This document shows, one piece after another, positions 38,219-46,860 of a stretch of DNA of 47,386 bases. Under the pieces are notes generated by a model. It was not told the DNA's origin, did not search any database, and saw nothing but the letters and a program-made list of their open reading frames with translations. The position numbers and the translations under genes were made by a program. Source of the stretch: Desulfobacula sp. (GTDB taxonomy: Bacteria; Desulfobacterota; Desulfobacteria; Desulfobacterales; Desulfobacteraceae); NCBI RefSeq assembly GCF_014237455.1, contig NZ_JABZFL010000034.1, positions 1 to 47,386 on the forward strand. The letters run 5' to 3'. Position 1 is the stretch's first letter. Each line of letters begins with the position of its first letter.

Positions 38219-38316
38219 GGAAGTGCGCGGCTCACTGGTGGGGCCCTCGGACTTCAAATCCGATGTGGGGCGCTAGAACCGTCCCGGGTGGGTTCGATTC
38301 CCATGCACTTCCGCCA
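38219..38316 (+). tRNA. selC: tRNA-Sec (anticodon TCA)
   Basis: 98 nt including CCA. An 8-bp acceptor stem (GGAAGTGC pairs with GCACTTCC), the anticodon TCA at 38254-38256 inside CTTCAAA with a GGA/TCC stem, a long extra arm (GGGGCGCTAGAACCGTCCC) and the T arm GGTTCGATTCCC. Size and features match bacterial selC. It implies that the organism makes selenoproteins, which fits anaerobic dehydrogenases of sulfate reducers; no selA, selB or selenoprotein gene is visible in the window. Confidence 0.95.
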
Positions 38317-38593
38317 ATTTATCCTATAATTTCAATAGATTATTCTTTCTGATATCATCCCAAAAATAGTACCAGCGAAAAGTAGAGATTTTTGGGAAAT
38401 CCTTTGGGAAATCCTTGATTGACGAATTGTGGGGGGACACTAAGAACCATCCGTTGATATTGCTGGATCTATGGGCACTCTTATGAGACTCTTATGGGAC
38501 GATATCCAGACCGGGTGGGCGTGTTGGGCTTTTTGAAAGTTGTGTTTTTTGGATGGTTTTATTTGTCAAAATATTTTGGAGCGTTTTCTTGAT
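38317..38593. other. Region between selC and the Mu-like element
   Basis: No gene is supportable. It contains a 12-base tandem TTTGGGAAATCC near 38390-38415 and a copy of the element-end sequence at 38551-38571 (listed separately). A remnant of an integrase 3' end next to the tRNA is possible but I could not confirm it. Confidence 0.4.
38551..38571 (+). repeat. Third copy of the Mu-like element end sequence
   Basis: GGATGGTTTTATTTGTCA plus AAA, identical to the right end of the element at 46572-46592 and inverted relative to the left end at 38594-38615. Together with the left end it forms a 21-bp perfect inverted repeat with a 22-base spacer. It may be an additional transposase-binding site or the remaining right end of another copy. 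Confidence 0.7.
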
Positions 38594-38615
38594 TTTTGAC
38601 AAATAAAACCATCCG
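38594..38615 (+). repeat. Left terminal inverted repeat of the Mu-like element
   Basis: TTTTGACAAATAAAACCATC followed by CG; exact reverse complement of 46571-46592. Probable MuA-binding end. Confidence 0.8.
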
Positions 38616-38919
38616 CCTTTTTGATTATAGTAAAGCTCTGAAAGCCTTTTAGAATAGTCTTTTTAAGCCATATTACTATTTCAATTCAGCGCATTTTTTA
38701 GCTTTTTGGGCTGGCCCGATTCTTCAATAAATCAGTAGAGCCGGAAATGGGTCGGGAATAGATTGAAAAATTGATATCTCATTTAATATCTATAGGTTAT
38801 ATGAAATATTGTAAAAATCACGCTAAAAAGAGTCGGAAACGGCAAGCCGCATTTTTTTTAAAAAACGAAGCAATTTTCTATAAATTTTGATTTTTGGCCC
38901 GGATGATTTAAAATCGATT

Positions 38920-39402
38920 TTACTTATTTTTTTTTATCATTTGTTTAACTAAAGATAATTGTTCAACAACCTCAGTTAAGAGGTTATGAGTTATTTTTTT
39001 TTTCACAAAGTCAACAAAAACCATTCTATCTTTATCTTCAAGCACAACCCCTGTTTCATCCATAGCCTTGAACACTAGCATTTCGGCAAGTTGAGAATCA
39101 AATGGTAGTGTACTAATCCAATTATAAAAACTCAAATCACCATCTCTAAAAGGAGTAAACCACATTTCTGTATCGGATAAAGATATTATTCCAGTTATTA
39201 ACCACATCATATCGACTTTTGGGAATTGTTTATTTAGATTATCTAAAAATTTTTTCCCCGGACTTTGCTCTCCTTTCAGATATCTAAATATTTGTGTTCT
39301 GCTAATCTGACATCGGGAAGCGAACTCAACCTTTGTCAATCCAGTTCGTTCGATTATATATTTTAAGCGGTCCTTAAAATTTTCAATGGGTTTAGACTCC
39401 AT
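38920..39402 (-). CDS. Phage-type repressor with XRE helix-turn-helix
   Basis: 160 residues. HTH_3 domain in the first 60 residues (LKYIIERTGLTKVEFASRCQISRTQIFRYLKGEQSPG) and a C-terminal region of unknown fold (WLITGIISLSDTEMWF...) with no Ser-Lys LexA-type peptidase motif visible. It is divergent from the early operon, separated by paired CTAATTAGG operators, so it probably keeps the element quiet like Mu c or Cro/CI repressors. AAGGAAGAACT is the RBS. Confidence 0.85.
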   Translation of the reverse strand: MESKPIENFKDRLKYIIERTGLTKVEFASRCQISRTQIFRYLKGEQSPGKKFLDNLNKQFPKVDMMWLITGIISLSDTEMWFTPFRDGDLSFYNWISTLPFDSQLAEMLVFKAMDETGVVLEDKDRMVFVDFVKKKITHNLLTEVVEQLSLVKQMIKKNK

Positions 39403-39450
39403 AGTTCTTCCTTTAAATTGTGAAAGTAACGCAAAATTAAAAAAAAGATG

Positions 39451-39499
39451 CTAATTAGGTATTTTTTTAATTGACAAGCCCCTAATTAGGTACTATATC
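39451..39499 (+). promoter_or_regulatory. Early promoter with two CTAATTAGG operators
   Basis: TTGACA (39471-39476) and TATATC (39494-39499) are 17 bases apart, a strong sigma-70 promoter reading into the Ner-like and MuA genes. CTAATTAGG occurs at 39451-39459 and again at 39482-39490 inside the promoter spacer, as part of the perfect palindrome CCTAATTAGG. The 31-bp distance (three helical turns) fits cooperative repressor binding. Confidence 0.75.
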
Positions 39500-39559
39500 A
39501 CATAAATATGGTACTTATTACAATTTACAACATACACCAAGAATTGAAGGGATGCAATT

Positions 39560-39763
39560 ATGATTTTTAAAAATGTTAAAAAAGAAATGATAGACCAAGA
39601 TCTTACAAATAAAAATCTTGCCAAAATTTTGGGGTATAGAACGTCGCATATATGCGGAGTAATAACCGGTCGTATTCATTCGATTAAAGTCCGAAAAAGC
39701 ATAGCACTTGCCCTTGGCAAAGATTACGATTTTCTTTGGGATGAGAAGAAAACAAGGCGGTAA
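39560..39763 (+). CDS. Ner-like small DNA-binding protein
   Basis: 67 residues with a helix-turn-helix (DQDLTNKNLAKILGYRTSHICGVITGR). First gene of the early operon, opposite the repressor, in the position of Mu ner, which down-regulates early and repressor transcription. GAAGGGAT precedes the ATG. Family by position and fold rather than sequence match. Confidence 0.75.
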   Translation: MIFKNVKKEMIDQDLTNKNLAKILGYRTSHICGVITGRIHSIKVRKSIALALGKDYDFLWDEKKTRR

Positions 39764-39767
39764 TAAA

Positions 39768-42035
39768 ATGGAACCGGCGCTCACTACAAAAAATATTTCC
39801 ATCTGTCTTGAACAGACTCCAAGAGCAGTATTGGCCAGGGCAAACAAAGAACAATGGCCTTCAGAAATAATTAGAGGCCGTGGTGGGAAAAAACACACTT
39901 ATAATTTTGACACGCTGCCGGATGATGTACGGGTCATGATAATTGCAAAATACCCAGCCCTTAAACCTGAACAAGGTATGGTTCAAGCCTCTTCAAATCT
40001 TCCGATCTCTCAAACTGCCCAAAATGACCACCTATTAACAAAAAATCATATTGCCATTCATGGTGCTAAAGTTGACATCATTCAGTTTTACAATAAGCAT
40101 ATTAGACAAGCACCGACAGGCAAGAAAAGCGCTTTTAAAAATGAATTTATAAAAAAATATAACACCGGTAAACGCTATCCAAAACTTTTCAAAATTGTTG
40201 GTAAAATCGGCAGTTGGAGAACTGTTCAGGGATGGCAAAAACAACTACTCAAATCTAAGACCCCATACCCGTTAGCTGACACCAGGGGTTTCCATCGAAA
40301 GGATAAAAGCAGACTCACTGAAGAACAAAAGGAAATCCTTGTAAAACACGCCCTTCACCCTAATCAACCCTTGATTTCTGAAGTCATACGGATAGCCAAA
40401 TCAACGATAGCGGCCAGGGGAATTCCAATAAAGGTCAGTGATAGAACTTGCCGCCGGTGGCTTCAAAAATATATGGAAAAAAATTATCCCTCCTGGGTGT
40501 TCAGCCGTGAAGGCTCCAAGGCCCTTAATGACAAATGTCTCCCATACATCGAGCGAGATTATAGTAAAATTGCCGTTGGTGACGTTCTCATTGCTGATGG
40601 TCACACATTAAATTTTGAAGTCTTAAACCCTTACACCGGCAAACCTGGCCGTCCTACCCTGATACTCTGGTATGACATGAAATCAAATTTTCCATTAGGT
40701 TGGGAGATTATGCCGACAGAGAACACCCAGGCTATTTCTTCTGCCCTACGTCGGGCTATTATACGTCTGGGCAAATACCCCAAGGTGGTTTACCTGGATA
40801 ATGGAAAAGCTTTCCGCGCTCGATTCTTTGAAGGCCATAACTTTGAAGAGGATGGTTTTTCAGGGCTTTATGACCGTCTTGGTATTAAAACAATCTTTGC
40901 ATGGCCATATCATGGGCAGTCTAAAACGGTAGAGCGGTTTTTTAAAGATCTTGCTGAATTAGAGAGGTTAATCCCTACCTGTGTTGGAAATTCAATAGCC
41001 AATAAGCCACCCAGATTAAACCGGGGAGAAAAAATACACAGAAAGGTTTATAATAAGGCATTCCCGGCGCAATTCATAACCCTTGAACAGGCAAACATAG
41101 CTATTGCAAGCTGGTTTGATCTGTATGTAACACGGAACCAATTAGGCCATTTAGAAGGGCAAAACCCCCTTGAACTTTACCTTGAAGGCAGAGGTCCTGG
41201 GGTTGATCTCATAGAACTTCGTCACCTCATGATGAATATTGAAATAAAAACCATTAACAGGAATGGTATCCGTTTCCGTAAGAAAAATTATTATCACCCA
41301 AAACTATTCACCCGCAATCATCCTGTAACCATCAAATACGATCTTCAGGACGATTCAAAAATTTATGTTTTTGACCAGGACGAAACTTTTATTTGTGAAG
41401 CCTCACCCGTTGGGAAAGTTCACCCCGCTGCAACCCACCTGGGCACGGATGAGGATAGAAAAATACTCAAGGAAAGTATCGAGTTTAAAAAACGGCTGGA
41501 GAAAGACGCTACAGCATCAGCCAGGGCTTTTCTTTTGTCGGATGTCCTGCCGGAACAGCAGCGTCGGCTTAAACGCCTGGGCATTGATCAGCTTGGAATG
41601 CCTCTTGATGCTTCCAGAAAAAAGCCCATTGAACCGGACATTTTGACCCCAGCAAAGGAAAAAAAAATAAGGGTAGAGATTGAGCTACAAAGAAAACTTC
41701 AGCAGGAAGGAAAAACCGCTATTTCTCAAGAGCCTGAATATATTCCAGAGATAATCAACGAGGCTACTGATATCCGCGATCAATTAAGGGAAATGGATGA
41801 AATGGAGCGTTATGAAAAAATTACGGAACTTGAAGTCAGAGGCTTAATGATACCGAAGGAATATCAAGCGTTTACAACGTATTTCGAGTTAACCCCGGAA
41901 TACAAAAAATATAAAGATTACTTTGAAGAGTACCGGGCAAAAATGGCTTTAATGTATCAAGTTGATATTGAAAACAATAACCAAAAAAACAGGGCGGATG
42001 CTGGCACACCCACCCCTAACCCAACAAGGATTTAA
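39768..42035 (+). CDS. MuA-type DDE transposase
   Basis: 755 residues from the ATG at 39768, which has AAGGCGG upstream; a longer version starting inside the Ner-like gene (39708) is less likely. N-terminal MuA HTH (SICLEQTPRAVLARAN, KHTYNFDTLPDDVR), linker, the catalytic core with Asp277 (LIADGHTLNFE), Asp344 (VVYLDNGKAFRA) and Glu389 (SKTVERFFKDLAE), then a Mu-C-type beta domain (HHPKLFTRNHPVTIKYD-like) and an acidic/basic tail for the MuB interaction. The spacing closely follows phage Mu (D269, D336, E392). It should cut and join the element ends. Confidence 0.93.
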   Translation: MEPALTTKNISICLEQTPRAVLARANKEQWPSEIIRGRGGKKHTYNFDTLPDDVRVMIIAKYPALKPEQGMVQASSNLPISQTAQNDHLLTKNHIAIHGAKVDIIQFYNKHIRQAPTGKKSAFKNEFIKKYNTGKRYPKLFKIVGKIGSWRTVQGWQKQLLKSKTPYPLADTRGFHRKDKSRLTEEQKEILVKHALHPNQPLISEVIRIAKSTIAARGIPIKVSDRTCRRWLQKYMEKNYPSWVFSREGSKALNDKCLPYIERDYSKIAVGDVLIADGHTLNFEVLNPYTGKPGRPTLILWYDMKSNFPLGWEIMPTENTQAISSALRRAIIRLGKYPKVVYLDNGKAFRARFFEGHNFEEDGFSGLYDRLGIKTIFAWPYHGQSKTVERFFKDLAELERLIPTCVGNSIANKPPRLNRGEKIHRKVYNKAFPAQFITLEQANIAIASWFDLYVTRNQLGHLEGQNPLELYLEGRGPGVDLIELRHLMMNIEIKTINRNGIRFRKKNYYHPKLFTRNHPVTIKYDLQDDSKIYVFDQDETFICEASPVGKVHPAATHLGTDEDRKILKESIEFKKRLEKDATASARAFLLSDVLPEQQRRLKRLGIDQLGMPLDASRKKPIEPDILTPAKEKKIRVEIELQRKLQQEGKTAISQEPEYIPEIINEATDIRDQLREMDEMERYEKITELEVRGLMIPKEYQAFTTYFELTPEYKKYKDYFEEYRAKMALMYQVDIENNNQKNRADAGTPTPNPTRI

Positions 42036-42036
42036 T

Positions 42037-42756
42037 ATGAAAACAATACAATTAAAACCGACCTTTGTAAAAACAAAAAATGTCAGGAAAACCGAGGTGA
42101 TGATGGATGCTCTTGGCCTGAACCAGGGAGAGGGTTGTTTCGGCATGATCTACGGTCAGGCCGGACGTGGAAAGACAAGGACTGCCCAGTGGTACACCGC
42201 CCATAATGACACTGGTTATTTAAGAATTTTAAGTATTTATAGAACATCGGAACTAGCCTTCTTATATGATTTATGCAAAGCCCTGGGCATCATCACACCG
42301 CCTAAAAGAAAAGCCCAAGCGTTTGCCGCCATTGTTGACAAGCTTACGGATTATCCCAAGCCTGTATTTCTTGATGAAATCGAGAAGATGCCGAACACCT
42401 TTCTTGAGATAGTCCGCGATATTGCAGATATTGCAGGTGTCCTTTTTGTTTTTATTGGTGAGGATGAGCTTGTAGGCTATCTGGAAAGAAACCGGAGAGT
42501 ATGGTCCAGAACTTTTAAACAGCTTGAATTTAAGCCTATTGAGATTGCGGATATTATCGTGTATGCCGTTGAAACCACGGGTCTTAAACTTTCCATTCAG
42601 GTTGCATCAATACTTCATAAAGCCTCCGGAGGTGATTTCCGTTTGATTCGCCGGGATCTGATTGGATTGGTACAGGCTGCCAATGCCAACCAGACAGACA
42701 CCATCACTGAAAAAATGGCTAATATTATTATTAAATCTGGCTTTTCAGGGAAATAG
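42037..42756 (+). CDS. MuB-type AAA+ ATPase
   Basis: 239 residues from the ATG at 42037, one base after the MuA stop codon. Walker A GQAGRGKT (40-47), Walker B PVFLDEIEKM (109-118) and sensor/arginine region ERNRRVWSRTFKQLEF. MuB-type proteins polymerise on target DNA, stimulate MuA and confer target immunity. The N-terminal HTH of Mu MuB is absent or very short here, so this is the compact form found in Tn552-like and many Mu-like prophages. Confidence 0.9.
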   Translation: MKTIQLKPTFVKTKNVRKTEVMMDALGLNQGEGCFGMIYGQAGRGKTRTAQWYTAHNDTGYLRILSIYRTSELAFLYDLCKALGIITPPKRKAQAFAAIVDKLTDYPKPVFLDEIEKMPNTFLEIVRDIADIAGVLFVFIGEDELVGYLERNRRVWSRTFKQLEFKPIEIADIIVYAVETTGLKLSIQVASILHKASGGDFRLIRRDLIGLVQAANANQTDTITEKMANIIIKSGFSGK

Positions 42757-42767
42757 GACTCTATGGC

Positions 42768-43313
42768 ATGAAAGGATTTACTCAAATCGTCAGGAACAAA
42801 ATCAAGGAAATAGGAGAGAAAGGCACTGAAATCAAAGCGGCTCAGCTTGCAGAGGCTTTAAATTTAACAAGTCGGAAGGACAAAAACCCTTTGTACCGAA
42901 CCATTCAGGATTTTGTTGTAAGAGGAGAGGTTAAGCGGCTAAGACACGGAGTTTATAAGTATGTTGAATTACCCTCTAAAAACGAATTGAAAAGCATAAT
43001 GTGGCGGCTTCTTCGGGCAAGGAAAATCATCACTATTGATGACCTTGAACAGCTTTCTGGAGCCTCCAGAGAATATGTAACTGAATGGCTGAGGATGCTT
43101 GAAAAGCGAAAAATTGTGAAACGCCTCGAAGACGGCAGATGCCGCCTTATCAACGACACTGTTATTGAACCGAAAGACAACGATAAAGCTTTTAAGTACA
43201 GGAAAATCAGAAGGAAGAAAAAGAGAGAAGCTTTGACAGCATTAGACCAAGCTTCCGCCGCTATTAAAACCGCAAAGGAAGCCTTGCAGGCTTTAGATGC
43301 CGGAAACAGCTAA
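42768..43313 (+). CDS. Winged-helix-like DNA-binding protein of unknown role
   Basis: 181 residues. The first 120 residues contain two probable winged-helix units (AAQLAEALNLTSRKDKNPLYRTIQDFVVRGEVKRL; DDLEQLSGASREYVTEWLRMLEKRKIVKRL), followed by a highly basic linker (KYRKIRRKKKREAL) and a helical tail (TALDQASAAIKTAKEALQALDAG). It probably controls early gene expression or takes part in replication. The RBS is weak (AGGA), so coupling to MuB is likely. Confidence 0.75.
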   Translation: MKGFTQIVRNKIKEIGEKGTEIKAAQLAEALNLTSRKDKNPLYRTIQDFVVRGEVKRLRHGVYKYVELPSKNELKSIMWRLLRARKIITIDDLEQLSGASREYVTEWLRMLEKRKIVKRLEDGRCRLINDTVIEPKDNDKAFKYRKIRRKKKREALTALDQASAAIKTAKEALQALDAGNS

Positions 43314-43330
43314 ATAAGGAGGTTCTCCCA

Positions 43331-43825
43331 ATGGCACAACAATCAACGCTAAGGACTTATAATCAACAAAACAGAACCATCCATAAGGCGCTTCAAATGT
43401 CGGGAATGTCATATAATGAAGACAAAGAAGAGTTGATGGAGCTTATAAATTCCATGACCAGACGAAAAATAGACGGTTTAAGCGCCCTTACCATTGGCGA
43501 GAGGGATAAGCTTATCAGACATTTTCAAAAACGTGGTTTAAATCTGTTTAAGCCGTTTGTGAATAAAGAATTTATGGGATGGCGCAAGGGAGATGCAGAG
43601 ATAAAGGAAATCACCACCTCAAGACCATTGCGGGTGCCGGAAGACAGACGGCGGCTTGTTGGAAAAATAGGGGCTGTCCTGGCTGATCTGAAACTTCCCT
43701 GGTCTTATGCTGACGGTATTTCAACCAAAATGTTTAATATCAACAAGGTTGAATGGTGCTCTCCTCAGCAGCTTTACAAGATTGTTGCGGCCCTGGCAAT
43801 ATATCAAAGGAGGCAATACGCTTAG
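43331..43825 (+). CDS. GemA-like regulatory protein (Mu gp16, DUF1018)
   Basis: 164 residues. The C-terminal block LVGKIGAVLADLKLPWSYADGISTKMFNINKVEWCSPQQLYKIVAALAIY is characteristic of the GemA/DUF1018 family; in Mu, GemA alters host and phage gene expression. The N-terminus (YNEDKEELMELINSMTRRKIDGLSALTIGERDKLIRHF) is also conserved in such proteins. Strong RBS AAGGAGG. Confidence 0.9.
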   Translation: MAQQSTLRTYNQQNRTIHKALQMSGMSYNEDKEELMELINSMTRRKIDGLSALTIGERDKLIRHFQKRGLNLFKPFVNKEFMGWRKGDAEIKEITTSRPLRVPEDRRRLVGKIGAVLADLKLPWSYADGISTKMFNINKVEWCSPQQLYKIVAALAIYQRRQYA

Positions 43826-43826
43826 C

Positions 43827-44165
43827 ATGAAAAACCTATCTGAAAAATCCTTAGAGGTATGGGGTCTACTTGATGACCAAGAGAGAAGAGCCATTCGAAA
43901 GGATAACCCCTTCAGGGCTGATCGAAACGAAGCTATCAAGGCATTACGCAGGCGGGGTGTTGGAATGGACATTATAGCCGAAATAGCGGGTTTTCATATT
44001 GGCCATATTAAGAGACTTGCAGGAAAAATCAAACCCGTTGCCTGGGAGTTTAATCATAAAAAAATTGAAAGCAAAATCAACAGAATTGAAATTGTAATCG
44101 CCGACTTGCTCAAGGAGCTTTCAGAAATCAAAACAAATATTTTAACCAACATCAAGGATAATTAA
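43827..44165 (+). CDS. Small early-region protein, possible DNA-binding
   Basis: 112 residues from the ATG at 43827, one base after the GemA stop codon and after AAAGGAGG. The middle (RNEAIKALRRRGVGMDIIAEIAGFHIGHIKRLAGKI) has the shape of a helix-turn-helix, and the C-terminal 50 residues are a predicted coiled coil (KKIESKINRIEIVIADLLKELSEIKTNI). Not recognised as a named family; position matches the small Mu early genes. Confidence 0.7.
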   Translation: MKNLSEKSLEVWGLLDDQERRAIRKDNPFRADRNEAIKALRRRGVGMDIIAEIAGFHIGHIKRLAGKIKPVAWEFNHKKIESKINRIEIVIADLLKELSEIKTNILTNIKDN

Positions 44166-44175
44166 AGGAGAAGAC

Positions 44176-44580
44176 ATGGAACAACTTTTTTTAACACGCG
44201 ACCGGACAGAGGATCTTCTTGGGTGGGCAGCAAAATTAGAATGCTTAGGCAACATTATTGCATTTCTGGGCGAATCAAAAGATGGTGATTTAGCACTCCA
44301 ATACAATGACGGTGCTTTGGGTAATATCATTATGGATTACGCCCATGCCTTGAAAGAGACTATAAGAGAATCATATCCGGCTATTTCAAAGACAATAGAC
44401 AGTTTTGACTGGTCAAACATTGGGGCAATAGAACGAAGCAGCAAAACGGCTATATTTCAACGCAATAGCCAAGGTATTAAGCAAAATCTTCAAGCTATTA
44501 ACGAAGTTAAAGAAAAATTCAAGCATCTTTATGCCCTGGAAGAAGTTTTAAAAAAAGAACTGGAAAGCACTGCAATTTAA
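44176..44580 (+). CDS. Unknown small protein of the Mu-like element
   Basis: 134 residues, helical, no signal or membrane segment: MEQLFLTRDRTEDLLGWAAK at the start, then YAHALKETIRESYPAISKTIDSF and a coiled-coil C-terminus (NEVKEKFKHLYALEEVLKKELES). RBS AAAGGAGAAG. It lies in the early-gene run. No family recognised. Confidence 0.7.
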   Translation: MEQLFLTRDRTEDLLGWAAKLECLGNIIAFLGESKDGDLALQYNDGALGNIIMDYAHALKETIRESYPAISKTIDSFDWSNIGAIERSSKTAIFQRNSQGIKQNLQAINEVKEKFKHLYALEEVLKKELESTAI

Positions 44581-44645
44581 ACGTTTAACCATACTGCTTT
44601 TGTATAAAAATTACTATAAGCAGCAAACACTTATAAGGAGAAACC

Positions 44646-45260
44646 ATGAAAACTATAATTTCATCGGGACCAATCAACAACGCATTACATGAGTTCCAGT
44701 TATTTCCTTATGGGGAAAGCGAACTCGAAGGTCAGCATGTGACAAAAATAACGGTGGACAAAGAAAGTATGTCACACATTATTGCTGAGTTCGAACGGAG
44801 AGGAAATGACGTGGTTGTAGACTATGAGCACCAGACAATTAGAGAAGGCAAAGCCCCTGCTGCCGGATGGATTTCAAAATTGATCGACAAAGGATCTGAG
44901 GGATTATGGGCAGCCGTAACCTGGACAGAAAAGGCCAAATCCTTTTTAAAAAACAAAGAATATCGCTACTATTCGCCGGTATTCCACGTCCGCAAAGCAG
45001 ACAGCCGAGTTATAAGAATTTTAAGTGTTGCTCTAACAAATATGCCCAGGCTTAATAATTTAAAACCAGTTTATGCTAAATTAAGACTTGTTACAGGCAA
45101 GGCAGGACATCTTGTGATAAGCCAGGATCAGCAACGTTTGAATGAAATGATGGGTTTAGAGCTTGAGGACTATTTGGAATATGCAAGTGAAATACCTAAT
45201 AGTTTACAACTTTTTGAAACCGATGAGGAAAAAATAAATCATCTTTTACCAAACGATTAA
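44646..45260 (+). CDS. Mu gpI-like protease/scaffold protein, short form
   Basis: 204 residues. The segment GNDVVVDYEHQTIREGKAPAAGWISKL and KNKEYRYYSPVFHVRKADSRVIRILSVALTNMPRLNNL is the core of the Mu I protein (PF10123-type) family, which in Mu is the head-maturation protease and scaffold (361 residues). The C-terminal scaffold half is shorter here (LSMNEMMGLELEDYLEYASEI-like tail). No capsid gene accompanies it, so its role in this element is unclear. TAAGGAG lies upstream. Confidence 0.82.
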   Translation: MKTIISSGPINNALHEFQLFPYGESELEGQHVTKITVDKESMSHIIAEFERRGNDVVVDYEHQTIREGKAPAAGWISKLIDKGSEGLWAAVTWTEKAKSFLKNKEYRYYSPVFHVRKADSRVIRILSVALTNMPRLNNLKPVYAKLRLVTGKAGHLVISQDQQRLNEMMGLELEDYLEYASEIPNSLQLFETDEEKINHLLPND

Positions 45261-45306
45261 AGCCTGAGATTGGCTGGATATTAACAATCAAGCAAAGGGG
45301 TATAAA

Positions 45307-46050
45307 ATGTTAAATTATAATAAAATTGAAAGAGAGCTGGGAAATATATTAGGACATTCTGGAGGCATTACAAGCTTTTCTTTAGGATTTAATAAAGAAT
45401 TGCTTAGCCTGGATTGGGTTGACGATTACATTGAAGACAAAAAACTTCAGGATGAAATAGACACTCTTGAGAAATCCATCATGGAAACCAGGACAAATAA
45501 AATCAGCAAAGATGAGCTTAGAGCCTGGCTTGAAGGTGCCATGCAGAAATATAGAAAATTTCAACTCGAACAGCTTCAAACGCTAATAAAAGAACTTCAA
45601 AACAGGGAACTTCCTTTTTTTTCATTCGCCGATAAAATAGGTGCACATAAGATCCTTGGCGGTGATATACATCCCTATGTTTTTAGCTTAACCAACAAGG
45701 AAAAGGACGCTATTTTTGCAGGTCTTGAGGGTGGTATGACTGTCCAGGAGATAGATTCTACCATAAAAGAAAATCAGGCAAGAATTGACCAATTAAAAGC
45801 TGTAAGAGAAGAAAAATTTAGCCCAAGATCCAGGTGGATTTATAAAGACACGGGCGAGGCCCTGCCTTACCCTAACGGGTGTAGATGGACCATATATGTC
45901 AAACTATGGAAACTTGTGGCAGGGCGTTTTGAAGGAGTCGTTGATAATATCGGCTACAAAGTGACATCAGACAAGATGCTTACTGCATACATAAAGTTGG
46001 GGATAGACAAACAGCAGAAACGGCAACCTGCTATAACCCCATTTGAGTAA
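45307..46050 (+). CDS. Unknown protein of the Mu-like element
   Basis: 247 residues, hydrophilic with a long helical middle (SKDELRAWLEGAMQKYRKFQLEQLQTLIKEL) and a C-terminal region rich in aromatic residues (SPRSRWIYKDTGEALPYPNGCRWTIYVKLWKLVAGRFEGVVDNIGYKV) that may be a beta domain. Followed by a strong terminator at 46093-46133. No family recognised; it occupies the position where Mu-like phages start their head genes. Confidence 0.7.
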   Translation: MLNYNKIERELGNILGHSGGITSFSLGFNKELLSLDWVDDYIEDKKLQDEIDTLEKSIMETRTNKISKDELRAWLEGAMQKYRKFQLEQLQTLIKELQNRELPFFSFADKIGAHKILGGDIHPYVFSLTNKEKDAIFAGLEGGMTVQEIDSTIKENQARIDQLKAVREEKFSPRSRWIYKDTGEALPYPNGCRWTIYVKLWKLVAGRFEGVVDNIGYKVTSDKMLTAYIKLGIDKQQKRQPAITPFE

Positions 46051-46092
46051 TACTGATGGAGCACGGACCTCCTTGCTGTCCTCCTGCGGTGT

Positions 46093-46133
46093 TTAAGGAA
46101 GGTGCCTTGTTAGGGGCCTTCCTTAACCTTTTT
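46093..46133 (+). terminator. Rho-independent terminator of the element's main operon
   Basis: TTAAGGAAGG (46093-46102) pairs with CCTTCCTTAA (46117-46126) around 14 bases with further possible pairing, followed by CCTTTTTATA. It closes the run of genes that begins at the early promoter, separating Mor. Confidence 0.85.
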
Positions 46134-46170
46134 ATACAGAGTTCAACAACTTAACAAGGTTTAAATAGAC

Positions 46171-46491
46171 ATGGCTCAAAATAAAAAACATATGATCAAC
46201 GACAGCCTGAATCCGTTCACTAAGATCGAAAATTTTAACGAACTGATTCAGACTGTTGTTGATGTGATAGGCATAGATTCTACAGTAAAACTCATCAAAG
46301 AATTTGGCGGTGAAGCCTTGTATCTCCCAAAGCTTGAATCAGTTATGCGAAATAGTAGAAATAGAGATATCCGCAAGGATTTTACAGGGAACAACCATAG
46401 GGAATTGTCAAAAAAATACAGGCTTACGGTGCGTCAGATCCGGTATATTCTAAGAAAAAAAAAGGGGGTGGGGATAACAAAATTTAGATAA
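46171..46491 (+). CDS. Mor-family transcription activator
   Basis: 106 residues. Mor/C family features: LIQTVVDVIGIDSTVKLIKEFGGEALYLPKLESV, then a C-terminal helix-turn-helix (NNHRELSKKYRLTVRQIRYILRKKK). In Mu, Mor activates the middle promoter and C the late promoters. Here it is the last gene and reads toward the right end, with nothing downstream to activate inside the element except the end itself, so its target promoter is elsewhere or in a helper phage. Confidence 0.88.
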   Translation: MAQNKKHMINDSLNPFTKIENFNELIQTVVDVIGIDSTVKLIKEFGGEALYLPKLESVMRNSRNRDIRKDFTGNNHRELSKKYRLTVRQIRYILRKKKGVGITKFR

Positions 46492-46497
46492 TTCAAC

Positions 46498-46544
46498 AAC
46501 CTGGATCGGATCAAATCAAATAGTTTGAATCGAACAGGTTTTTT
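46498..46544 (+). terminator. Terminator after Mor
   Basis: AACCTG...CAGGTT arms with inner pairing (TCG and CAAA blocks) and a TTTTTT tail, about 47 bases. It ends seven bases after the Mor stop codon and before the right end of the element. Confidence 0.7.
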
Positions 46545-46570
46545 GCGTCCAAAATTTATCGCACTTTTTA

Positions 46571-46592
46571 CGGATGGTTTTATTTGTCAAAA
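46571..46592 (-). repeat. Right terminal inverted repeat of the Mu-like element
   Basis: CGGATGGTTTTATTTGTCAA followed by AA, exact reverse complement of 38594-38615. The following bases (GTCGG) do not match the five bases left of the element. Confidence 0.8.
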
Positions 46593-46860
46593 GTCGGATT
46601 TTAAATGTCACTCTACACGAATTTCCTCAGACGTGCTAATTTGAATTTTAGTAATTTCGGTTTTATTGAAACAGATATTCTCCTTATTCTAATCAGATCG
46701 ATCCCGTGATTTTTTGGCTTTCAGAATGGAAAAATGTCATCAGAGTTCATATTCATATGGGCACCTGCTCTGAAGGTCGCCCTTTCTTGGTGAGCAAGAA
46801 AGATTGAAAACTTCACATGTTGTGCCCTTTTTTAAACAAATATAACAAGGAGGTATTATC
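46593..46860. other. Intergenic region right of the Mu-like element
   Basis: 268 bases without a supportable gene. It carries the promoter region for the monooxygenase-like gene; AAGGAGG lies seven bases before its ATG. No second copy of the selC or element sequences is present. Confidence 0.5.

Follow-up and report, generated by a model that had tools for sequence, protein, structure and literature searches.

A Mu-type transposable element of Desulfobacula with a shortened head protease and no virion set of its own: a candidate phage satellite

Mu-like phages have long been studied as transposons turned viruses; Mu itself has TG...CA ends and a 5-bp duplication. SuMu, D3112 and a prophage of another genome (G043:C294, locus L068) are among the known Mu-like (transposable) phages closest to the element described here.

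Among the phage satellites, SaPIs are integrase islands of Gram-positive bacteria, and P4 integrates site-specifically by an integrase and encodes a replication protein of its own. According to the accessible part of PMC6893505, the SaPI protein CpmB binds the capsid with the C-terminal motif of the helper's scaffold and redirects capsid size, and P4 (Sid, Psu) is a virion-less satellite that resizes the capsid of its helper, P2, with Sid forming an external cage. A Mu-like phage serves as helper for the PICI PmCI172 of Pasteurella multocida, which has small heads; PmCI172 carries a capsid-like gene, and the accessible text does not describe it as Mu-derived or transposing (PMC6092414). Prophage AH14b of Pseudomonas sp. 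ANT_H14 (16.8 kb, with a helper of 55 kb) was proposed to be a satellite without structural genes, and neither transposition nor a protease-scaffold role is described for it in the available account (PMC4936722). Likewise, the accessible sections of PMC11389934 do not describe the P4-like, PICI, cfPICI, PLE, PICMI, VEIMEs and tycheposon families as Mu-derived or transposing. A search of the full-text literature, as far as its texts were accessible and with few subscription journals covered, found no Mu-derived or transposing phage satellite.

Gene content and boundaries of the element

We analysed a stretch of 47,386 nucleotides of a Desulfobacula contig (the window), whose last 9 kb are occupied by a Mu-type element near a tRNA-SeC gene. 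The element contains 11 open frames, from a repressor to a Mor-type activator (Table 1). The assignments of the repressor, Ner, MuA, MuB, GemA, gpI and Mor, which the original prediction had made from the sequence, were upheld by Pfam and PHROGs matches. Its further claim that virion genes are absent held in part: in neither Pfam nor PHROGs did any of the 11 proteins match a family of terminases, portals, major capsid proteins, tail proteins or lysis proteins, but the gpI-like gene is itself a virion-assembly gene. The element shares with Mu-like transposable phages a MuA-type transposase, a MuB ATPase, TG...CA ends and a 5-bp target duplication. We do not file it as a phage because, apart from a shortened head protease, referred to below as mini-gpI, it shows no terminase, portal, head or tail genes of its own. 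Like a satellite, it lacks a full virion set and carries its own integration and regulation genes. The architecture of mini-gpI would suit a protein acting on the morphogenesis or packaging of a helper. As judged against PICIs, there is no tyrosine or serine integrase among the 11 proteins, and MuA is found instead.

Table 1. Coordinates of the element, its repeats and its genes in the window
Feature	Position	Strand	Details
Left target duplication copy, 5-bp	38423..38427	.	CGAAT
Whole element	38428..46617	+	8190 bp; TGTGGGGGGACA ... TGTCACTCTACA; TG start, CA end; single match in host assembly
Diverged repeat site near left end	38434..38453	+	14/20
Third transposase-site-like repeat copy	38551..38571	-	inverted; outside the interval of the original prediction
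Transposase-site-like repeat, left 22-bp repeat of the original prediction	38594..38615	+	
Repressor, HTH_3, 160 aa	38920..39402	-	PF01381 9.2e-06; phrog_8 4.3e-10
Ner-like regulator, 67 aa	39560..39763	+	phrog_1468 3.1e-08
MuA-type transposase	39768..42035	+	phrog_310 9e-104; Mu-transpos_C 1.2e-15
MuB-type ATPase	42037..42756	+	phrog_296 1.7e-38; AAA_22 3.5e-13
Winged-HTH protein (wHTH), 181 aa	42768..43313	+	PF13338 AbiEi_4 7e-06; homologs follow MuB in many Mu-like relatives
GemA-like, 164 aa	43331..43825	+	PF06252 5.5e-09
o112, HTH-like	43827..44165	+	common to G035, G586, G635; looser relatives G516, G380
o134	44176..44580	+	common to G035, G586, G635
mini-gpI, 204 aa	44646..45260	+	protease domain + scaffold C-terminal motif, central scaffold region absent; PF10123 1.1e-48; phrog_328 2.7e-40
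o247, function unassigned	45307..46050	+	homolog (244 aa, 28%) at equivalent place in G586
Mor/C-family late transcription activator, 106 aa	46171..46491	+	PF08765 6.7e-18; phrog_836 3.3e-17
Transposase-site-like repeat, right 22-bp repeat of the original prediction	46571..46592	-	
Right target duplication copy, 5-bp	46618..46622	.	CGAAT

The unit had been predicted to be enclosed by perfect 22-bp inverted repeats. These repeats are real, but as ends of the element they are ruled out by a better pair, TG at 38428 and CA at 46617, which lies farther out. The terminal bases of the outer pair (TGTGGGGGGACA opposite TGTAGAGTGACA) are identical at 9/12 positions, the best of the end pairs, and three alternative 5-bp pairs at the element ends gave a terminal match of at most 5/12. 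When random pairs of same-size stretches were drawn from the rest of the window, a terminal match of at least 9/12 together with a 5-bp duplication occurred in 8/2000 (0.4%, draws less than 1 kb apart being scored as misses), and any 5-bp duplication in 51%. The 22-bp repeats look like putative internal transposase sites, for which the transposase sites in Mu ends are the model of comparison. A 21-nt version of the repeat, with up to three mismatches, is present at three places in the host assembly, all within the element.

The tRNA-SeC gene (38219-38316), about 110 bp from the left end of the element, is whole according to ARAGORN and is not the insertion site. A search within the genus did not recover an empty site for the window element, whose flanks match relatives only piecewise. 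At the left ends of three virion-less elements (window 38428, L465 5934, L476 2312) the TG is soon followed by G-rich stretches.

We also considered o247 as a Sid-like coiled coil, for which we found no support: its heptad score was z 1.5 relative to shuffled sequences, and its fold model had a pLDDT of 41. The z values of the frames beside the other three mini-gpIs were 4.1 (G035), 2.5 (L180) and 1.9 (L357). A match of o247 in G257 was discarded as weak (29%).

Relatives of the element and the question of decay

The original prediction suggested looking for a related complete Mu-like prophage in the same genomes as the relatives of the element. The host assembly (G000) contains one match to the element, one MuA and one gpI; no Mu-type portal, second copy of the element or helper was found in it. 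Larger prophages are available for comparison at loci L068, L069 and L074, where the order is A-B-GemA-Mor-terminase-portal-gpF-gpI, with wHTH seen in L068. Mor is located left of gpI in all three, whereas in the window it is far right, after gpI and o247, and for this reason a simple deletion fails as an explanation. Collinear order and broken genes, as expected of a decayed prophage, are thus not what we see, since Mor is displaced and the 11 frames are open. The possibility, also raised at the outset, that the block is the left part of a full Mu-like prophage agrees with the A-B-wHTH-GemA genes and Mor, which resemble it, but o112, o134, o247 and mini-gpI have no counterpart there. The resemblance of the early genes to those of larger prophages would be expected from common descent.

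In about 200 MuA and gpI loci, o112 and o134 were matched in G035 only (E 0.01), and at the same threshold o134 and o247 had no match among 50,697 phage records. Pattern scans of viral contigs, which see only places fitting a short peptide pattern, yielded no relative of o112 (28 candidate stretches) or o134 (35). Among the MuA loci, 127 extended 9 kb or more beyond MuA. A downstream virion-gene match was present in 75 of them; the other 52 cannot be classed as lacking virion genes, since the terminase usually starts close to where the fetched flank stops.

An o134 profile found five matches in 389 genomes of the order: the window's own, those of G035, G586 and G635, and one in G514, a false lead in a 559-aa frame without Mu genes. 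Mu-like loci with the uncommon o112-o134 pair are present in G035, G586 and G635, and they bear out the expectation that the same gene order would be found at other sites in near genomes: GemA-o112-o134 in G586 and G635, and o112-o134-mini-gpI...Mor in G035. The G586 locus, on a 5-kb contig cut at both ends, reads MuA-MuB-wHTH-GemA-o112-o134, a 64-aa frame and the o247 homolog (28%), which is the window order; its 64-aa frame corresponds to the C-terminal part of gpI only, with one motif (22 bits) and no protease.

The element of G635 is complete. Its order is repressor-Ner-regulator-MuA-MuB-wHTH-GemA-o112-o134-two unknowns-Mor-o103, and its 10,105 bp lie within an MFS transporter gene, flanked on either side by TCAAC as the target duplication. 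When the flanks were joined, the MFS frame was open (312 codons, 0 stops), and joins shifted by 1 or 2 bases gave three stops each. A 9-mer is repeated at both ends of this element, with one internal copy, and does not occur outside it in 16.4 kb. Because only 5/12 of the terminal bases agree, the insertion call relies on the duplication, the open frame and the repeats. In this way an empty site was recovered for a relative. Four accessory or unassigned frames of G635 were scanned for virion families without a match.

The copy in G035, which belongs to the same genus as the window, looks damaged. The order there is end of MuA-MuB-wHTH-portal in two frames-o112-o134-mini-gpI-unknown-o103-Mor, the parts of MuA lie on two contigs, with an early stop in the first, and the mini-gpI frame (224 residues) has no ATG, GTG or TTG before residue 58. 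The MuB of another Desulfobacula relative, G080:C118, is 70% identical to that of the window, and a single HTH gene comes after its Mor. No virion family was matched among 11 frames scanned over its next 24 kb, no o112, o134 or gpI match was obtained, and its ends were not found. As gpI was found neither in G635 nor in G080, mini-gpI is not universal among these elements.

With an o112 profile, eight matches were obtained in 172 genomes of the class, four of them strong (window, G635, G380, G516); those in G023, G029, G157 and G631 were set aside as weak matches within longer frames, one with a stop. In G516 we delimited a candidate Mu-like element of 8560 bp (L476, G516:C23, 2312-10871) with the target duplication CCGTT and ends agreeing at 6/12. 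It encodes a repressor, Ner, MuA, MuB, GemA and an o112-like protein, without a Mor match. The only virion-type gene found in it is a short head maturation protease of phrog_976 (261 aa vs a 415-position profile), a different family from gpI. A repressor and Mor are present in three of the four complete or near-complete elements (window, G635, G080), G516 having the repressor alone.

The o112-like HTH gene of G380:C116 (L475, 7962-10136) lies between a GemA-like small frame and a tyrosine recombinase, both identified by eye, with a primase-like frame upstream. We took this locus for a tyrosine-recombinase element, not a Mu-like relative. At L465 (13814-14413), a 199-aa protein with internal repeats seen by eye and no family match occupies the usual place of mini-gpI.

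Taken together, the related elements elsewhere, the complete relative with its target duplication and empty site, and the codon constraint on mini-gpI described below support the prediction of a maintained unit, and a maintained family of virion-less Mu-type elements is well supported. The window gene order is partly common to elements in other genera. An ordinary Mu-like relic or decayed prophage is unlikely, because the o112-o134 pair recurs in Mu-like loci of G035, G586 and G635.

The shortened gpI protein

The gpI of the window is a head maturation protease of 204 aa that aligns to positions 1-186 of the 330-position profile. Compared with full gpIs, its protease domain is followed directly by a stretch like their last 25 residues, and about 150 scaffold residues are missing between. 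Invariant protease residues are kept, among them D59, E61, H62 and S110. Fold prediction yielded a confident protease domain and, for the motif, helices at 160-168 and 173-182. Its best fold matches in the PDB are capsid-assembly proteases, namely those of HCMV (2wpo, E 0.025), pseudorabies virus (0.11) and T4 gp21 (0.18), none below 0.001; a PDB sequence search with the gpI profile gave no match.

A model of the C-terminal motif was built from 91 full-length gpI tails and used with a cut-off of 8 bits. It found one copy in the window mini-gpI (11.3 bits) and two copies each in the short gpIs of G035, L180 and L357. A short second motif ending KINHLLPND can be seen by eye in the window protein. 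The motif frame of G586 ends similarly, by eye, with KIKRLLPT, and so the short form of the second motif seems to be shared rather than a fresh lesion. The motif was counted in 168 distinct complete proteins from the matches listed and the genome searches. Among the matches listed, long gpIs (at least 280 aa) had one motif in 154/159 cases, none in 5/159 and two in 0/159; a single motif in full-length proteins is partly expected by construction, the absence of two is not. Among the shorter ones listed, 3/9 had two motifs, all from Mu-like loci, 2/9 had one, as in L328, and 4/9 had none. The short gpIs of L397, L375, L418 and L291, which have no C-terminal motif, look like truncations.

PF10123 was matched in 20/389 genomes of the order and 38/395 of the phylum, and among strong matches starting at the protease only the frames of the window (207) and G035 (224) were shorter than 260 residues. 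Of the phage records, 197 match the window mini-gpI, and none covers 80% of it.

Both other mini-gpI loci are cut by contig ends. L180 (viral contig IMGVR_UViG_3300005403_000149) has the order repressor-Ner-MuA-MuB-wHTH-GemA-like-Mor-360-aa frame-mini-gpI, after which the contig ends; genes of filamentous-phage type, Zot/pI-like and minor head protein, lie upstream of the Mu-like element at 5-2143. In L357, a repressor and, by eye, a small HTH-like frame at the place of Ner accompany MuA, MuB, mini-gpI and a charged frame. Matches to phrog_28 (5.9e-78) and phrog_426 (5.8e-20) identify a tape measure gene and a small terminase in the same locus, whose FtsK-like end is truncated by the contig. 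The small terminase subunit is a typical redirection gene. At about 1010, the left edge of the L357 element falls at TGTGACAC, by eye apparently within a YhaM-like OB-fold gene that it interrupts.

We computed a tree of 115 protease domains by a quick method. On it, the distribution of the mini label implies no fewer than three changes on starred branches, which could also be one gain and two losses. The AU test rejected a single clade of all four minis (p-AU 8.25e-05) and a clade of window, G035 and L357 (0.0039). The window and G035 minis form a sister pair that lacks strong support (78). The two differ at codon positions 1/2/3 by 0.36/0.22/0.62, a pattern that we take as a sign of selection on the mini-gpI protein; o134 (0.50/0.37/0.59) and o112 (0.50/0.37/0.63) are less constrained.

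A possible transposing satellite and its known counterparts

Three other explanations of the element were weighed. It is rather doubtful that we are dealing with an anti-phage Mu-type transposon that does not travel in virions, and whose mini-gpI would be a dominant-negative inhibitor of the head assembly of invading Mu-like phages. Interference by mini-gpI would occur either way, prophage-encoded assembly blockers such as Tab exist (accessible text of PMC10884400), wHTH is similar to AbiEi and no helper was found in the genome; but defence would require neither Mor as late activator nor a lysogeny switch of the Mu type, and relatives of wHTH follow MuB in many Mu-like loci with virion genes. 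Moreover, PADLOC, applied to five window proteins, matched only wHTH (best AbiEi, 1.3e-08) and o134 (weak DRT, 0.0049).

The conserved second codon positions of mini-gpI, its odd architecture, for which the gpI tree requires three or more changes, and the presence of both repressor and Mor in three of four elements speak against a Mu-derived transposon that moves only inside genomes, leaves its passage from one genome to another to plasmids or chance, and keeps the protease as a roleless remnant. Although it would account for the complete transposition set, the target duplication, the lack of a virion set and the failure to find gpI in G635 and G080, we regard it as improbable. Very improbable is a Mu prophage from which an internal deletion took the virion genes and left the ends. 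Such a deletion would likewise keep the ends and the target duplication, and early genes homologous to those at the left of larger Mu-like prophages, the short gpI and the broken G035 copy suit it; it does not agree with Mor right of gpI, with the absence of o134 and o247 from phage records and the restriction of o112/o134 to G035 among about 200 MuA/gpI loci, or with the same genes at unrelated sites in other genera, in open frames.

We consider it somewhat probable that the window element is a Mu-type transposing phage satellite that redirects the capsid assembly of a Mu-like helper, and we infer that it uses the helper's virion. The element, with its ends, duplication and open genes, would integrate and replicate by its own MuA and MuB, which are presumably active, and, judging by their families, the repressor and Ner would keep it silent. 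Upon induction, Mor may switch on the element's own right-hand genes and the late genes of a co-resident helper, the element itself making no virion. The C-terminal motif of mini-gpI, which ends the scaffold in full-length gpI, would bind the major capsid protein of the helper, and mini-gpI would therefore compete with the helper's protease-scaffold. By the protease or the motif alone, this competition could give small or satellite-dedicated heads, or block helper heads. Satellite DNA would be packaged into the redirected heads from the element end, as Mu DNA is from its own. Against the satellite interpretation weigh the failure to find a helper in the host assembly, the failure to find gpI in G635 and G080, the damaged G035 copy, the truncation of L180 and L357 by contig ends, the tape measure gene kept by L357, the lack of a Mor match in G516, the single full motif of the window mini-gpI, the modest support for the window and G035 sister pair, and the limited exclusiveness of o112.

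There is, in our view, about an even chance that these elements are a new class of satellites moving by Mu-type transposition, in which gpI shrank independently in at least three Mu-like lineages to a protease with a doubled capsid-binding motif, once to the motif part alone, as convergent capsid piracy. If the satellite reading is true, Mu-like phages also give rise to parasites of viruses in which the transposon is retained and the viral part lost. Mini-gpI is a candidate capsid-redirection protein open to direct testing; if it arose repeatedly, this would show how satellites can be born from the scaffold gene of their own helper.

In comparison with known Mu-like phages, MuA, MuB, wHTH, GemA and Mor are common to L068 and the window element, and the gpI protease domain of the window is 39% identical to that of L068 and 34% to that of SuMu. 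In L068 Mor lies to the left of gpI, and the virion genes, named by inspection and from their position, include a terminase, portal, gpF and a 338-aa gpI, whereas of these virion genes the element has the 204-aa gpI only and, unlike L068, it has o112, o134 and o247. Among satellites, P4 offers a parallel to Mor in Delta, a satellite-borne late activator. SaPI1 and its relatives (CpmA/CpmB) are, in the accessible part of PMC6893505, small elements that lack a virion set and encode a protein with the capsid-binding motif of the helper's scaffold, the role that we propose in parallel for mini-gpI. CpmB is a small helical dimer without a protease fusion; by analogy, it would be the nearest worked precedent for the mechanism of mini-gpI.
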